Shown here: one piece after another, positions 42,849-52,367 of the stretch
How the letters are laid out: every line of letters starts with the position of its first letter
Numbering within the stretch: position 1 is the stretch's first letter
From: a virus
IMG/VR virus record: IMGVR_UViG_3300045973_000110
Location: 1-54,613 of that record
Length of the DNA stretch: 54,613 bases
Reading direction: 5' to 3' (one strand)
Notes under the pieces: model-generated
Told to the model about the DNA's origin: nothing
What the model saw: the letters and a program-made list of their open reading frames with translations, nothing else
The model's database searches: none
Made by a program: the position numbers and the translations under genes

Positions 42849-44003
42849 TTGTATTTAACAAGATTTGTTAATGTAAATAATGCGGATGTAAAAGATTTAA
42901 ATAAATTATCCGCAGATGTCTGGAATCATTGTGTTTTGTTAGACGCTGAATATTATATAAATCACAAAAGATATTTAACACAAAATGAATTGCAAAATTT
43001 ATTAAAAGGGTTTGTCAAATTGCACTCTAAAAATATTCAACATATTATTTTAAAGTATAACCAAGCACGTACCGATATGTTTAATTCGATTAAGTTAAGA
43101 CATAAAAATAGTCGCACGGTTAAACTTCCGTATAAACATAAAAATTTTATGCCGACTGGGTGGGATTATCAAGCCTTTAGTGTCGACTATGAAAGTCAAA
43201 TTATTCGTCTTGGTTCTATAAAAGGGAAAGCTCCTATATTTATTAAGGGGTATAATTTACCACAAAATATAGTTGAGATTGAGTTAGTTTATGATGGCGA
43301 ATATCGATTGTCATTGAAATATAAAATTGACAATAATGTTCGTGTTATACAATCTAATAACTCGTCCGCAATTGACCTTGGAGAAATTCACGCGATAGCA
43401 TCTATCGACAATAATCGTAATGCAATTATTATTACTGGGCGTAAGCTAAGAAGTATTTCTAGGTTACGTAACAAAGAGCAGGGGCGCATTCGTCAGAGAA
43501 TGAGTAAAACAGTTAAAGGAAGTAAACAGAATAAGAAATACCGCAACGCGATAAGTTCTATGAAATTTAAAAACGAACGGCAAACCAAGGATTGTGTTCA
43601 CAAAATAACAAAACATTATGTTAATTATTGCGTAGAGCACAATGTTGCAATTGTATATTATGGAGACTTAGATTCTTCGACAAGAAACACTAAAAAGGGC
43701 GGGAAAATTAATCGCGCTAATCGTCAAAAATTGTCTCAGTGGAATTATGGTCAAGTTGTAAGTCAATTGCAAAACAAATTGTTAAGATTTGGAGTGAAAA
43801 TGGTTAAGGTTAAGGAATATAACACAACTAAGAAGTGTCCAGTGTGTGAAACTTTAAATAAAACCAAGGGGCGAGAATATAAGTGTAAATGTGGTTATAA
43901 AAATCACAGAGACTTAAATGGCGCCATTAATATTCTAAATGATAACAATTGTTATGGTTATAAGATTAATTCTTGTAATACATTCAAGTATCTGCGAGCG
44001 TAA
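42849..44003 (+). CDS. tnpB: TnpB-family RNA-guided nuclease (IS200/IS605), displaced RuvC-II Glu
   Basis: 384 residues from a TTG at 42849 after AAAAAGGAGGTG. RuvC-I is intact (AIDLGEIHAI, Asp176). RuvC-II reads YYGDLDS with Gly272 where most TnpBs have Glu. A Glu (Glu323, VKEYNTTKKCPVC) lies before the zinc ribbon, where some TnpBs carry a relocated catalytic Glu. RuvC-III Asp355 (HRDLNGAIN) and four zinc-ribbon cysteines (CPVC, CKCG) are present. TnpB cuts DNA next to a TAM using a guide RNA from the 3' end of its own transcript. No TnpA transposase is in the window. Whether this copy cuts or only binds is undecided. Confidence 0.85.
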   Translation: MYLTRFVNVNNADVKDLNKLSADVWNHCVLLDAEYYINHKRYLTQNELQNLLKGFVKLHSKNIQHIILKYNQARTDMFNSIKLRHKNSRTVKLPYKHKNFMPTGWDYQAFSVDYESQIIRLGSIKGKAPIFIKGYNLPQNIVEIELVYDGEYRLSLKYKIDNNVRVIQSNNSSAIDLGEIHAIASIDNNRNAIIITGRKLRSISRLRNKEQGRIRQRMSKTVKGSKQNKKYRNAISSMKFKNERQTKDCVHKITKHYVNYCVEHNVAIVYYGDLDSSTRNTKKGGKINRANRQKLSQWNYGQVVSQLQNKLLRFGVKMVKVKEYNTTKKCPVCETLNKTKGREYKCKCGYKNHRDLNGAINILNDNNCYGYKINSCNTFKYLRA

Positions 44004-44110: not shown

Positions 44111-44139
44111 TTGACAGATTAAATGTTTTGTGTTATACT
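44111..44139 (+). promoter_or_regulatory. Sigma-70/A-type promoter of the RNA island
   Basis: TTGACA (44111-44116), a 17-base spacer and TATACT (44134-44139). It should start transcription just before 44150 and drive the coiled-coil gene, the S24-like gene and the structured RNA block down to the hairpin near 46650. Confidence 0.85.
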
Positions 44140-44399: not shown

Positions 44400-44711
44400 A
44401 TGCAATACGACAAAGAGAACATGCATACGGCAATTAAATTGCTACAAGGTGAAACTTGTTTGGTTCAGGGATTCGGCAATTCAATGACACCGATTCTAAA
44501 ATCGGCTCAAGTTTGCGAGGTTAAACCTATTGACGACCATTCAAAATTATCCAAAGGTAATATTGTACTATGTAAGGTTAATGGTCATGTATACCTGCAT
44601 ATGATTTCTGCTATCCGTGGTAATCAATTCCAGATTAGCAATAATCACAAACATGTAAACGGATGGATTACAGCACCTAATATATTTGGCGTTGTAACAA
44701 AGATTTTATAA
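44400..44711 (+). CDS. S24/S26-like (LexA/signal-peptidase fold) protein, Lys replaced
   Basis: 103 residues whose start abuts the previous stop. The core matches S24/S26 Ser-Lys peptidases: GFGNSMTPILKSAQ holds the expected Ser, followed by KLSKGNIVLCKVNGHVYLHM. Where the family has catalytic Lys (VKR), this protein reads YLHM, so His stands in its place. It may be inactive or use a Ser-His pair. There is no DNA-binding or membrane segment. Similar small proteins occur in many phages with unknown role. Confidence 0.65.
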   Translation: MQYDKENMHTAIKLLQGETCLVQGFGNSMTPILKSAQVCEVKPIDDHSKLSKGNIVLCKVNGHVYLHMISAIRGNQFQISNNHKHVNGWITAPNIFGVVTKIL

Positions 44712-45064
44712 ACCGAGCCCTATTAATACGGTGACAGAGCACGACTGGGCGAGCCTCTCGTGGCTAAAGACAACCTATCCGATTAACGACTCAAAACGGT
44801 AAACAATCCGCGCGTATTAATCGTGAAGTTGGGTAATGAGAAATGGCGTGCATCCCCCTTTGGGGAAAATAGAATAAATATGGTCGGGGCACAGTGCGGT
44901 CGACGTCGGTATGTAACAAAAAGAGTGTGCCATGGTTACTCACTCTAACAAAAAGCATATCTCTTACCTCTTGTATTTGTGACGAGTGGCTATCTGATTT
45001 TACTGATAACCCAATAATTAACCTGTGTGTTAATTACATGTGAGTGGAATGCTCACAAAATCAT
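44712..45064 (+). ncRNA. Structured RNA, copy A (5' part), candidate GOLLD/ROOL-class
   Basis: No credible CDS. The conserved core 44886-45056 includes a GTATGT/GCATAT stem (44909-44914 with 44955-44960) enclosing AGAGTG/CACTCT (44922-44927 with 44941-44946) and a 13-base loop of form TGCC-NN-GG-NN-ACT. The 15-base TGTATTTGTGACGAG (44972-44986) follows, then a GGCTATC/GATAACC-like stem and a terminal GTGAG/CTCAC hairpin (45040-45056). The same elements with changed bases but kept pairing recur at 46310-46473. The 5' side (44714-44733) has an ACCG/CGGT stem and a CCCC/GGGG hairpin. Transcribed from 44111. Confidence 0.7.
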
Positions 45065-45139
45065 CGCGGGTAGGAATGCTGGGCATTCACGGGTCTCATA
45101 AGCCTGTTCAGGGGAGTTCAATTCTTCCACCCGCCTCCA
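45065..45139 (+). tRNA. tRNA-like element with CAU anticodon, degenerate D arm
   Basis: 75 bases folding as acceptor stem (C1 x C72 unpaired, then six pairs), a 4-bp D stem (GAAT/ATTC), anticodon stem with loop CTCATAA (CAT at 45097-45099), a standard T arm (GGGAG-TTCAATT-CTTCC) and encoded CCA. It lacks U8, A14 and A21, so the elbow contacts of a normal tRNA are missing. It begins 8 bases after the terminal hairpin of RNA copy A and could be a tRNA mimic within that RNA rather than a working tRNA. Confidence 0.6.
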
Positions 45140-45423
45140 TTTTAAGTACCATTGGAGCGCGCAAAGCCAATGTTACGATAGCCTTCAAGGCAGGGTTTAC
45201 GGCAAATTCGAAATGCATAGCTATTCGCGTTTGCCTAAATTCGTAATTAACATTCGAGGATAGATAAGGCAGCTATCGCGCCATATTGCCGATGTCGGCA
45301 TTATGGTCTTGAAAGAGATGTGGGGATATAGCCAACCCACCGAATATTAATATTGGTGTACCCTACCATAAGTGGGAACGAAACAAAGCGGTTGTCGGTC
45401 ATCCATAAAAACCGTCAAATCAT
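45140..45423 (+). ncRNA. Structured RNA, copy A (3' part between the two tRNA elements)
   Basis: 284 bases without a credible CDS, full of stems: GGCAAA (45201-45206) with TTTGCC (45230-45235); CCATA/TATGG enclosing TGCCG-ATGT-CGGCA (45281-45306); GTGGG/CCCAC (about 45321-45342); and CGGTT/AACCG (about 45389-45414). Possibly one transcript with the upstream part. It ends in the same 13 bases (AAATCATCGCGGG) that precede and begin the first tRNA-like element. Confidence 0.6.
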
Positions 45424-45498
45424 CGCGGGATAGTTCAGTGGTAGAATATTGGTCTCATAAACCAAGTGTCGTTGGTCCAATTCCAACTCCCGCCTCCA
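45424..45498 (+). tRNA. tRNA with CAU anticodon, initiator-like 1:72 mismatch
   Basis: 75 bases with encoded CCA (45496-45498). Positions: acceptor 45424-45430, T8, D arm GTTC-AGTGGTA-GAAT, anticodon arm TTGGT-CTCATAA-ACCAA with CAT at 45456-45458, T arm GTTGG-TCCAATT-CCAAC. C1 and C72 cannot pair, the hallmark that lets bacterial initiator tRNA be formylated, but the three G:C pairs of initiator anticodon stems are absent and the T loop has C55. tRNA-Met, tRNA-fMet-like or lysidine-type tRNA-Ile are all possible. Confidence 0.8.
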
Positions 45499-45547
45499 TT
45501 AATCTTTACGCAGAGGTGCGTTATAGATAGAAAGATAGGTAGTAGAT

Positions 45548-45835
45548 ATGATTTTAAAAGCTCGTGGATTAGGTGGATGGATTTATATTGACAATATTAC
45601 ATTTTTTGAAAAGGTATTAGATGGGAGTAATAGCGATGGCGGGCATACAACTGGCGAAGTTTCGTATATGCGAAATGATAATGGCGTAATGACCACTATC
45701 CCACTTACAACTAATGACGCCTATTTATTAAACGACGATGGTAAAACTATCGAATCGTTATGTGGTTTATTGCCAAGCCCAAGTACAAGTCCAAGACAAG
45801 AAATTAAGCCAAGAGGAAATATGTTCCCAGTTTAA
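45548..45835 (+). CDS. Hypothetical 95-residue protein
   Basis: Begins at the ATG at 45548 with a weak GGTAG site, 49 bases after the tRNA. Compact N-terminal beta domain (LGGWIYIDNITFFEKVLDGS), acidic middle, and a Pro/Ser-rich tail (PSPSTSPRQEIKPRGN). Not recognised; part of the RNA-island operon. Confidence 0.5.
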   Translation: MILKARGLGGWIYIDNITFFEKVLDGSNSDGGHTTGEVSYMRNDNGVMTTIPLTTNDAYLLNDDGKTIESLCGLLPSPSTSPRQEIKPRGNMFPV

Positions 45836-45865
45836 GATAAAATTTTAAACATCAAGGGGTGTAAG

Positions 45866-45916
45866 ATGAAAAATTATTTAAAAGAGGGCTCCCATATTCC
45901 GACTACGTTTACGTAA
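45866..45916 (+). CDS. 16-codon leader peptide
   Basis: ATG at 45866 after AAGGGG (45855-45860), encoding MKNYLKEGSHIPTTFT. Its stop (45914-45916) sits in the loop of a perfect 7-bp hairpin, CGTTTAC (45906-45912) with GTAAACG (45918-45924), four bases before the ribosome site of the next gene. A ribosome ending here would melt the hairpin, so this looks like a translational coupler or attenuator. Confidence 0.45.
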   Translation: MKNYLKEGSHIPTTFT

Positions 45917-45939
45917 AGTAAACGAGTGGAGGAATTCTT

Positions 45940-46104
45940 ATCAAAACAGAATCTAAAATTGTAGTTAAGCGCGAGACTAAAAACCAAATTATTACTGAAA
46001 CGGTTACTATCCTACGGATTTGGAATTTATTAGGTTTGGTCGAGGTCTATGAAAACTCACATTTTTATGAGTTCAAAGAAATTATTGGTATTGTAAAAGA
46101 ATAG
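45940..46104 (+). CDS. 54-residue protein with apparent AUC start
   Basis: The frame reads without a stop from 45922 to a TAG at 46102, with GGAGG at 45928-45932. No ATG, GTG, TTG or CTG lies near the ribosome site; ATC at 45940 is at a normal 7-base spacing and ATT at 45934 is too close. The protein (IVVKRETKNQIITETVTILR; YENSHFYEFKEIIGIVKE) has normal composition. A single frameshift joining it to the leader peptide is excluded by stops in both frames (45914 and 45919). A rare start codon is the simplest reading. Confidence 0.45.
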   Translation: MKTESKIVVKRETKNQIITETVTILRIWNLLGLVEVYENSHFYEFKEIIGIVKE

Positions 46105-46650
46105 ACAAATATTAGTTGTTTTGACTAATTACAACTAAAACAAATTAGTGATTACATGCTCCGTAAACCAGTAATCGGAATAAATATAACTGGCGAGAAT
46201 ATTAGGCTCGTAACTGCGCGGGCGAGTGGAATACAGACTGCCACTATAAACAACAGGTGTCGCCCCGACAGATGGCAAGTTCGCAATAGTCTGTCAATTA
46301 ATTTACGGCGGGGTACAGTGCGTCGCCCTGAATGTGACAAAATGGATGTGCCGCGGAAACTCATCCCATACAAAACACATTAATTTTCTGTATTTGTGAC
46401 GAGAGGCTATTGAATTTTTCTGGTAGCCCAACGATTAGCCTGCGTGCTATTCGCGCGTGAGTGGAAAGCTCATAAACTGGTCCACCGCACCTAGGAGGGC
46501 GACCCGATGATTGCTTATACTTGGGGTTGCTAAGTGCTGACAGTTGGCAAAGACCACGATGTCACCTACTTGACAGTAAATTGAGTTGTAGGCACAATCG
46601 ACCTCTTTCTCCATTTCTTGGTCCCATCAAATGAAATGGAAATTTTATTA
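46105..46650 (+). ncRNA. Structured RNA, copy B, candidate GOLLD/ROOL-class
   Basis: About 546 bases without a credible CDS. 5' stems: TTAGTTGT/ACAACTAA (46112-46138), GATTAC/GTAATC (46150-46176), GACAGA/TCTGTC (46267-46295). The core 46310-46473 repeats that of copy A: AATGTG/CACATT (46331-46336 with 46376-46381) around TGGATG/CATCCCA (46343-46368) and a TGCC-NN-GG-NN-ACT loop, the identical TGTATTTGTGACGAG (46389-46403), and GTGAGTGGAAAGCTCAT (46457-46473). The last two elements are 68 bases apart in both copies. Further stems follow up to the hairpin at 46611-46639. Length is near that of ROOL RNAs; identity not proven. Confidence 0.7.
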
Positions 46651-46652
46651 TT
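46611..46652 (+). terminator. Terminator-like hairpin ending RNA copy B
   Basis: Perfect 7-bp stem CCATTTC (46611-46617) and GAAATGG (46633-46639) with a 15-base loop, followed by AAATTTTATTATTT. It probably ends the transcript started at 44111. Confidence 0.6.
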
Positions 46653-46670
46653 TAAAAAGGAGGATTACTC

Positions 46671-47117
46671 ATGAAAAAAGAAACTAAGATGTCCTTGAAA
46701 CGATTAGAAGATTTACGCATTGCAGAATGTCGAAGAATAGATGAAAAAATGGAAATGAGTAATGTTTTCCTAGAAAAAATGCAGGCATCAGAAGCCGCTA
46801 GGCTAGATGCGATTAGAAGTGTCGATATGAATGCTGTAACTGTTGCAAATGAAAAAACAGTTGCACAAGCCGCTGTTTTAGCCACTCAGTTAGTAGAGAC
46901 TACAAACTCTTTACGTAATCTAATTACGGAAAGCCTTGAAAAACAGTCGAAAATGATTGAGGCAACAAATACTATAACTAATGAAAAAATTGATAAATTA
47001 GATAAGGTGCAGACAAGTACGGGTGGAAAATCAAGTGTAACCATGCCGTTATTAATGCTCGTTTCTAGTTTAATGGGTGGTTTGGTTATGTTTATTATTC
47101 AGAATTTAATGAAATAG
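46671..47117 (+). CDS. Coiled-coil protein with C-terminal membrane anchor
   Basis: 148 residues, AAAAGGAGG upstream. Residues 1-115 are helical and coiled-coil-like, with the SEAARLDAIRSVDMNAVTVA pattern found in a widespread phage family of unknown function. Residues about 124-146 are a tail anchor (MPLLMLVSSLMGGLVMFII). It should sit on the inner membrane face with the coil in the cytoplasm. Possible roles: membrane remodelling, an exclusion factor or a lysis helper. Confidence 0.65.
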   Translation: MKKETKMSLKRLEDLRIAECRRIDEKMEMSNVFLEKMQASEAARLDAIRSVDMNAVTVANEKTVAQAAVLATQLVETTNSLRNLITESLEKQSKMIEATNTITNEKIDKLDKVQTSTGGKSSVTMPLLMLVSSLMGGLVMFIIQNLMK

Positions 47118-50234: not shown

Positions 50235-50860
50235 TGAAAAAATTAAGCATCATCATACCTACGTATAATGTAGATAAGTATATCGAACAATGCCTTAGCT
50301 CTTTGTTACCACAGGTTGGAAAAAATGTCGAGGTTATTATTATCGACGACTGTTCGACTGATAGAACAAAAGAAAAGATAGACAAGATGATTAACAAATA
50401 TAACCGACCAGTAAAATTTATTCGCTTATCCAAAAATAGTGGTGTGAGTTTTGCTAGAAATATGGGGCTATCACTTGCCAGTGGCGATTATATTACATTT
50501 ATCGACGGTGACGATGCGGTGAGTAGCGAATATATAATTGCAATCCTACAAAATCTATTGCTTGGGTTCGACTATTATAAACTAAGTTGGTCTACGATGG
50601 TGGGCAAACCTGTAGTTTATAGAGCCAAAAACCTACCAGACTGGAATTGTAGCGTATGGAGTAGGATATTCAAATCAAGTATTATACAAAAAGAATTTGA
50701 CACTAGTAAGAAATGGGCTGAGGATTGGCAGTTTCTGCAAGATAATATTCGTGATAACTTGACATGTGGATACATTAATGATATAATCTATTTATATCGA
50801 AATGATAGAGAGGGGAGCCTTACTCAACAGATGCTTGATGCGGCAAAGAACACACAATGA
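50234..50860 (+). CDS. Family 2 glycosyltransferase
   Basis: 208 residues, start overlapping the previous stop by one base. Clear GT2 N-terminus (KLSIIIPTYNVDKYIEQCL), nucleotide-sugar Asp pair (VIIIDDCSTDRT), SFARNMGLSLASGDYITF and the DxD-like FIDGDDA. The C-terminal acceptor region is short and ends soon after the ED motif (WAEDWQFLQDN). Catalytic residues look complete. It should act in the cytoplasm. Confidence 0.85.
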   Translation: MKKLSIIIPTYNVDKYIEQCLSSLLPQVGKNVEVIIIDDCSTDRTKEKIDKMINKYNRPVKFIRLSKNSGVSFARNMGLSLASGDYITFIDGDDAVSSEYIIAILQNLLLGFDYYKLSWSTMVGKPVVYRAKNLPDWNCSVWSRIFKSSIIQKEFDTSKKWAEDWQFLQDNIRDNLTCGYINDIIYLYRNDREGSLTQQMLDAAKNTQ

Positions 50861-51810
50861 AACTTATCTTTTATAGTAAAAGGTTTATTGTTGGTGGGAT
50901 GGAAAACGCTGTTTATCACTTGGCTAGGTTATTAAAGCGCGATTTACATGCAGAAATAACAATTGTCTATGAAATCATTGATGACGGTACATTTCTTATG
51001 ACAGAAAAATATAAGAAAGAATTCGATACACAATATTTCTTAGATAGCGACGGCAGTATAAAGGATTTTTATTGCGATGTACTAATTAATTGCGACCCAA
51101 ATGCATTTGATTTACCGTATATACATGCCAAGCATACTATCCATTGGCTGCACTCTCGCTGCGTAAATTACAAAAACTTTCCGCATGAAAATATGGCGAT
51201 ATGCCAAAGCGAATGGCATAAACAAGAGTTAAAGGCACTCGGAATTGATGCAGTCGTTGTTAAAAATCCACTAGATATTCAGTTAATTAGAGAATTGGCA
51301 CTACAAGAGGTTGACAGGGGAAAGATACCAGAAAATAGAATTATATATTTAATGGCATGTCGTATTTCACCAGAAAAAGGCTTGGATAGGGCTATTTCTT
51401 TTATGAAAAAAGAGTACAACAAGGCTAATATATTAGTGGTAATTGGTGCGCCAACATATCCTAAAAATGAACAAATTAAAGAACGCATGATATTTAAGTT
51501 AGGTAAAAGAGTGGTGTTCCTTGGAGAGAAAATTAACCCATATCCATATATGCTACTAGCAGATTATATCTGTTCGTTCGCAGATTCTGAGACATATGGA
51601 ATTGTTAGCGAAGAGGCTCACATACTTAATAAGCCAGTCGTATTCTCTAAATATGATACCGCCAAAGACCAGTTTATTGAGGGGTTTGATAGTTGGATAT
51701 CAGAGGATAACTATTGCAAAAATAATGCAGTGCATGTTTATGATGAAAAAAAGAATATAGATGCATTAGAACAGTGGAAACGTATCTTAAATGCGTTGGA
51801 AATTGGGTAG
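50857..51810 (+). CDS. Family 4 glycosyltransferase (GT-B)
   Basis: 317 residues, overlapping the previous stop by 4 bases. The N-terminal domain begins KLIFYSKRFIVGGMENAVYH, the GG-nE motif of GT4. The C-terminal domain carries YLMACRISPEKGLDRAISFM and the donor-binding SFADSETYGIVSEEAHILNK with the E-x7-E pair. It is a retaining sugar transferase, probably using UDP- or GDP-sugar. Last gene of the operon; its stop lies in a terminator stem. Confidence 0.85.
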   Translation: MKLIFYSKRFIVGGMENAVYHLARLLKRDLHAEITIVYEIIDDGTFLMTEKYKKEFDTQYFLDSDGSIKDFYCDVLINCDPNAFDLPYIHAKHTIHWLHSRCVNYKNFPHENMAICQSEWHKQELKALGIDAVVVKNPLDIQLIRELALQEVDRGKIPENRIIYLMACRISPEKGLDRAISFMKKEYNKANILVVIGAPTYPKNEQIKERMIFKLGKRVVFLGEKINPYPYMLLADYICSFADSETYGIVSEEAHILNKPVVFSKYDTAKDQFIEGFDSWISEDNYCKNNAVHVYDEKKNIDALEQWKRILNALEIG

Positions 51811-51833
51811 AATTAAAAATCTACCCAATTTTT
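51803..51833 (+). terminator. Terminator of the glycosyltransferase operon
   Basis: Perfect 9-bp stem TTGGGTAGA (51803-51811) and TCTACCCAA (51820-51828), A-rich loop, tail of five T. The stop codon of the GT4 gene is part of the stem. Confidence 0.9.
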
Positions 51834-51841
51834 ACCATCGC

Positions 51842-51870
51842 TTGACAAACCAAATTATTTATGCTATAAT
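51842..51870 (+). promoter_or_regulatory. Consensus promoter for dUTPase-thioredoxin unit
   Basis: TTGACA (51842-51847), 17-base spacer, TATAAT (51865-51870): both hexamers are perfect, so this should be strong with the host housekeeping sigma factor and active early. Confidence 0.92.
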
Positions 51871-51899
51871 AAGACTATACTGAAAGAGAGGTATTATAG

Positions 51900-52367
51900 A
51901 TGAGGTGTTTTAAGAAGATTAGTCTAAAACAATACATTAAAGACGGTGGTACAGAAGAAGAATATAATAGTATAGTATTACCTATACGTGCAACTAAATT
52001 TTCCTCTGGGTATGATATTTGCACGCCGCGTAGAATTATTATTTCAAAAGGCGAATCTGTAAAAGTACCAACTGGAATTAGAGTTTTTATGGAAAACGAC
52101 GAAGTGTTCATGATGCATATTAGAAGTAGTATTGGGTCTAAGTTTGGCGTCAGAGTATCTAATTGTACTGGAGTAGTAGACTCTGATTATATTGCAGCCG
52201 ATAACCAGGGACATATATGGATGTTCCTGCATAACGATTCAGAGCATTTCTTTGAAATACAGGCTGGTAGTAAAATTTGTCAGGGTGTTTTCCACAAATA
52301 TCTGATTACCGACGATGATACCGCCGACGCTGTACGCACTGGCGGGGTTGGGAGTACTGGTAAATAA
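51900..52367 (+). CDS. dut: dUTP diphosphatase (trimeric dUTPase)
   Basis: 155 residues with all five trimeric dUTPase motifs: ATKFSSGYDI (motif 1), RSSIGSKFGV (2), GVVDSDYIA (3, with catalytic Asp), GSKICQGVF (4) and RTGGVGSTGK (5, closing the active site; Phe of the usual GGFGSTG is Val here). It hydrolyses dUTP to dUMP, keeping uracil out of phage DNA and feeding thymidylate synthesis. GAGAGG upstream; first gene behind a perfect promoter. Confidence 0.9.
   Translation: MRCFKKISLKQYIKDGGTEEEYNSIVLPIRATKFSSGYDICTPRRIIISKGESVKVPTGIRVFMENDEVFMMHIRSSIGSKFGVRVSNCTGVVDSDYIAADNQGHIWMFLHNDSEHFFEIQAGSKICQGVFHKYLITDDDTADAVRTGGVGSTGK

Follow-up and report, generated by a model that had tools for sequence, protein, structure and literature searches.

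Two diverged copies of a putative structured non-coding RNA in ORF-free stretches of a phage genome fragment

We found two diverged copies of an RNA core in the two longest ORF-free stretches of a viral DNA of 54,613 bases, referred to here as the window. Our preferred reading, to which we assign a probability of roughly 40%, is that they are a paralogous gene pair for a single phage RNA, structured, non-coding and hitherto undescribed, that acts in trans and possibly self-assembles through a loop. A trans-acting non-coding RNA is proposed because the copies share a fold with invariant loops, contain no reading frame and lie in a same-strand tRNA setting, and both RNAs would act in this way. 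The first-pass annotation had described two diverged copies of one large structured RNA and had pointed to the phage RNAs GOLLD and ROOL. The two-copy observation was confirmed as real and well read, and its size and the link to GOLLD and ROOL were somewhat overstated.

The two copies and their surroundings

The window is an IMG/VR virus record with 38.4% GC. Its terminase is 29-31% identical to those of SP-beta-group phages of Bacillota, and the nearest relative of its portal protein is that of the human faecal phage MT835520 (29% identity). The window is probably a fragment of a larger SP-beta-group phage genome. Forward ORFs cover approximately 94% of it in the ORF map, and two ORF-free gaps of 836 and 835 bases are far ahead of the third in the whole window, which has 274 bases. 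An S24-like protein upstream of the first stretch ends at 44711. The features of this region are listed below, where R1 is a covariance model built from both cores.

42849-44003: TnpB-like gene, 50% identical to a protein of Geobacillus virus E3
44712-45547, plus strand: ORF-free stretch 1, the largest gap of the window (836 bases; ORF map, gap list), containing copy 1, both tRNA genes and the skipping-rope RNA
44879-45060, plus strand: copy 1 of the conserved RNA core (from the alignment; 217 bits with R1, which was built from both copies)
45065-45139, plus strand: tRNA-Met(CAU) with a 6-bp D stem (ARAGORN), beginning 4 bases past the modelled core
45249-45348, plus strand: skipping-rope RNA (RF02924), 56.5 bits against a gathering score of 36.7, an assignment that holds for this element and not for the cores
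45424-45498, plus strand: second tRNA-Met(CAU) (ARAGORN; Rfam, 60.2 bits)
45836-46670, plus strand: ORF-free stretch 2 (835 bases), containing copy 2
46303-46477, plus strand: copy 2 of the conserved RNA core (198.7 bits with R1, which was built from both copies)
46610-46640, plus strand: strong hairpin (-10.3 kcal/mol fold) followed by a U-rich run to 46650, unlisted by the terminator scan

The cores, each of approximately 180 bases, are identical at 126 of 174 aligned bases (72%). The sequence marks reported earlier were found where they had been placed: GGGG(C/T)ACAGTGCG at 44886 and 46310, the 13-base TGCC-NN-GG-NN-ACT loops at 44928-44940 and 46349-46361, TGTATTTGTGACGAG, which is identical in both copies (44972-44986 and 46389-46403), and GTGAGTGGAA at 45040 and 46457, the distance from TGTATTTGTGACGAG to GTGAGTGGAA being exactly 68 bases in each. 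Comparison of stretch 1 with stretch 2 gave a z of 5.9, and the flanking regions gave a local alignment score of 234 (maximum of 159 in 200 shuffles). No alignable similarity beyond the cores was found in the flanks out to 44712 and 46650. Because the similarity is limited to the core, the earlier description of a large RNA holds for this shared part, and a larger size is unproven. Likewise, the first copy was said to carry tRNA elements; tRNAs do adjoin copy 1, but they are two separate genes outside the shared core.

A protein-coding origin of the cores was rejected. There was no ORF of at least 80 amino acids in the cores, no coding signal in a six-frame check or in ORFs down to 30 amino acids, and no Pfam match among the ORFs of the stretch. 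Only one forward frame is open in both copies, with a shared TGA stop. Of the 20 differences in the 3' segment of 89 bases that aligns without gaps, 18 affect the first or second codon position of this frame, a pattern opposite to that of purifying selection on protein. The earlier claim of selection on RNA structure and not on protein was thus supported, with six double compensatory changes against one failure, in two sequences only.

Stretch 1 has 44.7% GC, compared with 38.4% for the window. With more than 800 bases beside two tRNA-Met genes on the same strand, it has the setting of the tRNA-adjacent long phage RNAs, which are a kind and not a family. The last hairpin of copy 1 ends 8 bases upstream of the tRNA 5' end. 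RNase P cuts at the 5' end of tRNAs, so its cleavage would free the 3' end of copy 1, and copy 1 may sit on a transcript that is cut up by tRNA processing. The transcript of copy 2 would possibly end at the hairpin at 46610-46640, judging from its predicted fold. A terminator and promoter scan found neither a terminator nor an excess of promoter-like sequences, and a consensus-like promoter at 44111-44139 is of a kind no commoner than in shuffles.

The first tRNA belongs to a tRNA-Met(CAU) type, marked by a D stem of 6 bp and a D loop that is very short, which is common to Bacillota and Gram-negative phages (window 45065-45139; L168:1511-1585; L169:1512-1587) and scores poorly as a normal tRNA. 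Close relatives of this odd tRNA with a similar long D stem lie within the tRNA arrays of Vibrio phage QD01 and Salmonella phage KE23. The skipping-rope RNA shares the ORF-free stretch of copy 1 and is present in many SP-beta-group phages, but it is a separate element that has nothing in common with the cores and is absent beside copy 2. It was detected in 8 of 50 relatives gathered by their terminase (TerL) and in several named phages, often within ORF-free stretches of 0.65-1.8 kb. In Lactococcus phage PMBT69 (L033:3735-3889) it begins 2 bases past a tRNA-Asp, in a tRNA-rich region with a tmRNA gene, parts of which are annotated as small hypothetical proteins.

The position of copy 2 upstream of a Shine-Dalgarno sequence and the ATG at 46671, together with a riboswitch-like size, would also fit cis-acting leaders, in which each copy, as part of a 5' untranslated region, controls the next gene. 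For copy 2 this would be 46671-47117, whose coiled-coil product carries a likely membrane anchor at its C terminus. We regard such leaders as unlikely, as copy 1 is followed by tRNAs and not by a gene, copy 2 is set apart from its gene by a strong hairpin, and the genes after the copies (45548 and 46671) have no recognised family in common.

The TnpB gene 0.7 kb upstream of stretch 1 raises another reading, that the copies are guide RNAs (omega RNAs) for TnpB. Omega RNAs lie across the 3' end of tnpB or immediately after it, but here two ORFs lie between TnpB and the stretch, and the genome of Geobacillus virus E3, which carries the TnpB relative, gave no R1 match. This is the least probable of the explanations considered here.

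Base pairing in the two cores

The shared fold consists of six helices: H1, the outer stem H2, the inner stem H3 with its 13-base loop, and the 3' hairpins H4-H6.

44883-44904, plus strand: H1 hairpin of copy 1, GTCG (44883-44886) with CGAC (44901-44904) around GGGCACAGTGCGGT
46307-46327, plus strand: H1 hairpin of copy 2, GGCG (46307-46310) with CGCC (46324-46327)
44909-44960, plus strand: outer stem H2 of copy 1, 44909-44914 with 44955-44960; ACAAAA at 44916-44921 and 44948-44953
46331-46381, plus strand: outer stem H2 of copy 2, 46331-46336 with 46376-46381; ACAAAA at 46337-46342 and 46370-46375
44922-44946, plus strand: inner stem H3 of copy 1, apical loop 44928-44940; two double changes relative to copy 2
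46343-46368, plus strand: inner stem H3 of copy 2, apical loop 46349-46361
44988-45056, plus strand: three 3' hairpins of copy 1 (44988-45011, 45016-45035 and 45040-45056)
46405-46473, plus strand: three 3' hairpins of copy 2 (46405-46428, 46433-46452 and 46457-46473)

H1 is an additional helix that the first-pass annotation had missed, and it contains a double change from U-A in copy 1 to G-C in copy 2. Both stem comparisons made there survived in part. AGAGTG/CACTCT and TGGATG/CATCCCA both pair, but the latter requires a bulge or loses its outermost pair; GTATGT/GCATAT and AATGTG/CACATT also pair in both copies, but with ATGT placed over ATGT, the register of homology, they give only one true double change. 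In the outer stem H2, each copy is slid by one base. Over the whole fold, 34 of 35 pairs are formed in copy 1 and 32 of 35 in copy 2. Seven pairs are changed on both sides, of which six still pair and one, which may be a bulge, fails. Seven others are changed on one side, with pairing retained in four, gained in copy 2 in one and lost in copy 2 in two.

Several controls were applied to this pairing. Sliding the partners by 1-3 bases reduced it from 95% to 30-42%. When random bases were placed at the changed columns, the pairing of copy 2 was equalled in 0.3% of trials if substitutions were uniform and in 7% if they had the observed transition bias, and the reverse test on copy 1 gave 0.006%. 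RNAalifold gave a z of -3.7 with the hand alignment (0 of 500 shuffles) and -2.4 with the MAFFT alignment (16 of 1000 shuffles). The single core sequences showed no unusual stability (z of -0.6 and +0.5), and the shared fold lies 4 kcal/mol (copy 1) and 2 kcal/mol (copy 2) above the optimum of each. Conservation is about equal in loops (77/104) and stems (49/70). Copy 2 has a closing helix in its core flanks, GTCGCCC/GGGCGAC (46259-46265 with 46497-46503), and a clear counterpart in the flanks of copy 1 was not found.

It is very unlikely that the copies are diverged duplicates of a DNA element or a dead gene that pair by chance. Such an origin would be in keeping with the two-sequence sample and with the 7% of one forward simulation, but the slide controls, the reverse simulation and the alifold shuffles all favour pairing, and the cores contain neither an open frame nor a transposase. 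Overall, the comparison of the two copies provides good but not conclusive evidence for an RNA structure, because it comes from one sequence pair and the fold was picked by eye with both copies in view. A new RNA family is recognised by compensatory changes in several independent homologues; here, the six double changes come from one paralogue pair.

Comparison with known RNAs and search for homologues

We compared the window with known RNA families. A permissive Rfam cmscan (E<=10) found no GOLLD, ROOL, OLE or packaging RNA in the window. The models of GOLLD (RF02032, membership threshold 150 bits) and ROOL (RF03087, 99.1 bits) were also searched directly, as the first-pass annotation had proposed, and were silent in the window. 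The RF02032 search gave no window match at E<=10 in a set that contained no true positive control, and the RF03087 search gave none in 16 records including the window, among which no positive control responded.

That the cores are GOLLD or ROOL RNAs that have diverged strongly is therefore highly improbable in view of these silent models and of the mere 180 or so bases that the copies have in common. The setting does speak for it: a phage, a long ORF-free stretch and an adjoining tRNA-Met, as in GOLLD env-38 (PMC12286853). The suggested link to these RNAs thus stands as to context, phage tRNAs adjoining a long stretch free of ORFs, and falls as to membership. GOLLD is likewise a structured non-coding phage RNA beside tRNA-Met, but it is built of two domains and is often longer than 800 bases, while the window holds two paralogues of a short core, in which a conserved 3' domain and a variable 5' domain over several hundred bases are not seen. 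Its homo-oligomer is a 14-mer cage held by kissing loops and A-minor contacts, compared with a self-complementary loop only in the window. What the cores share with GOLLD appears to be the setting, and possibly the way of assembling, but not family membership. ROOL is similar as a phage or prophage RNA near tRNA islands, but the window has no match to its 574-position model.

The ACAAAA flanking the internal loop of the cores on both sides resembles OLE, whose dimer interface contains a non-canonical A-A helix and self-complementary loops (PMC12286853). This is a resemblance only; OLE is bacterial, has approximately 600 bases and has no Rfam match here. The packaging RNA of phi29 forms rings via loop-loop pairing. 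It is a phage RNA of similar size, but it has no Rfam match here, belongs to another phage group and has another loop arrangement.

The first-pass annotation considered two unequal copies in one phage unusual. A Bacillota phage with a pair of long non-coding regions next to tRNAs has a precedent in the kayviruses K and 515A1 with their lncRNA1 and lncRNA2 (PMC7698491, PMC9241854), which are very abundant during infection and account for 10.6% of phage transcript counts (PMC7698491). No sequence similarity was detectable between these two lncRNAs, or between them and the window RNAs. What is unusual is that one RNA occurs as two diverged copies, and we found no precedent for two such copies of one tRNA-adjacent long phage RNA.

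A model built from the two copies and run against phage genomes had also been proposed, and R1 found no third copy. Relatives of the window were gathered via TerL, the portal protein being unsuccessful as a probe. R1 detected no further family member in 63 records (13 phage records and 50 IMG/VR TerL relatives), in 45 loci with an exact 15-mer or the loop motif, in 398 Bacillota genomes or in the lncRNA regions of kayvirus 515A1. No core homologue was obtained by core-pattern scans of IMG/VR viral contigs and of a genome-contig collection, by blastn against phages, or in phage RNA islands (filters off) and tRNA neighbours. Elsewhere in IMG/VR, TGTATTTGTGACGAG occurs only without the remainder of the core. 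The best outside match, locus L176 (23.4 bits), has neither the loop motif nor TGTATTTGTGACGAG and was taken as chance; loci L002 and L003 matched no better than chance. Because no homologue was found, the cores are an orphan family with a single known source phage, as far as pattern-based scans and the content of the collections can show. The failure to find a homologue in any relative is odd for an important RNA, and it counts against our preferred reading.

The apical loop and phage RNA islands

In both copies, the apical loop of H3 is UGCC-NN-GG-NN-ACU, and it is the only site with a 6-base palindrome in both.

44930-44935, plus strand: palindrome CCATGG in the loop of copy 1
46351-46356, plus strand: palindrome CCGCGG in the loop of copy 2

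CCNNGG is self-complementary in each with a different NN (AU and GC). The predicted self-duplexes have energies of -12.8 and -13.3 kcal/mol, compared with -7.2 kcal/mol for the cross-copy duplex, so that each RNA could kiss itself and would kiss its sister less well. Neighbouring loop bases are unable to pair within one chain, so the switched palindrome points to intermolecular pairing. The same palindrome-switching argument has been made for homotypic kissing loops in OLE (L9.3) and GOLLD (L21a) (PMC12286853). Because a differing shared palindrome arises somewhere in 8% of column shuffles, we treat the predicted self-pairing as a suggestive lead and not as a result.

Under the preferred reading of two paralogous genes for a trans-acting RNA, molecules of the same RNA may pair via this loop (CCAUGG with CCAUGG, CCGCGG with CCGCGG), and each paralogue would self-assemble in the manner of the GOLLD, ROOL and OLE homo-oligomers. 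This is the most speculative step. The ACAAAA that is invariant on each strand of the internal loop between H2 and H3 could provide docking by A-minor or A-A contacts. It is a long shot that each RNA assembles with itself and not with its sister, the palindrome having been swapped from CCAUGG to CCGCGG or in reverse after the duplication, so that the pair evolved orthogonal RNA-only assemblies.

A real, if doubtful, possibility is that the RNA acts in trans as a structured monomer, a scaffold whose invariant loops (UGCCNNGGNNACU, UGUAUUUGUGACGAG, UGGAANG and the ACAAAA internal loop) would bind a protein or the ribosome. In the shared fold, the longest runs without any change fall in loops or single strands, the palindrome evidence is weak given the shuffles above, and the large raiA RNA is a monomer (PMC12286853). 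However, a monomer leaves unexplained why self-complementarity is kept in both copies despite two changed loop bases.

Similar regions were observed in other phages. In SP-beta (SPBc2 59189-60869, minus strand; L031:1190-2870), a 1.68-kb gap between yonN and yonK has no annotated genes and gave a weak skipping-rope match (29.6 bits) and a DUF3800-VIII RNA match (47.5 bits). In a five-phage alignment of this gap, RNA structure is strongly conserved, with a z below -2 in 9 of 20 windows (best -9.7), which marks the gap as a structured RNA island in a textbook phage. SPO1-like and other Bacillus phages contain short parts of it (among them query positions 585-968), a hint of mobile RNA modules. 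The window cores had no sequence match in the SP-beta island; both fall into one class of phage RNA islands that is still largely unexplored. A 1.84-kb ORF-free stretch in loci L004 (1290-3130) and L006 carries a skipping-rope RNA and a tRNA whose anticodon loop is odd. On visual inspection, it has a short ATCCC..GGGGACAATAAATAT motif in common with SP-beta and window 44852-44880. The closest portal relative, MT835520, has four tRNAs with structured-looking, GC-rich spacers of about 250-330 bases at 50660-52060 (L013:1660-3060), and an HU-like gene follows its tRNA region, as in SP-beta.

With the two paralogues, the SP-beta-group phages, for which SP-beta of Bacillus subtilis is a directly testable model phage, would gain a new RNA family in their uncharted non-coding DNA. 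GOLLD and ROOL are large phage RNAs that form RNA-only cages; if real, a short, self-specific paralogous pair would be a small, tractable case for studying the function of RNA assemblies and the evolution of their specificity.
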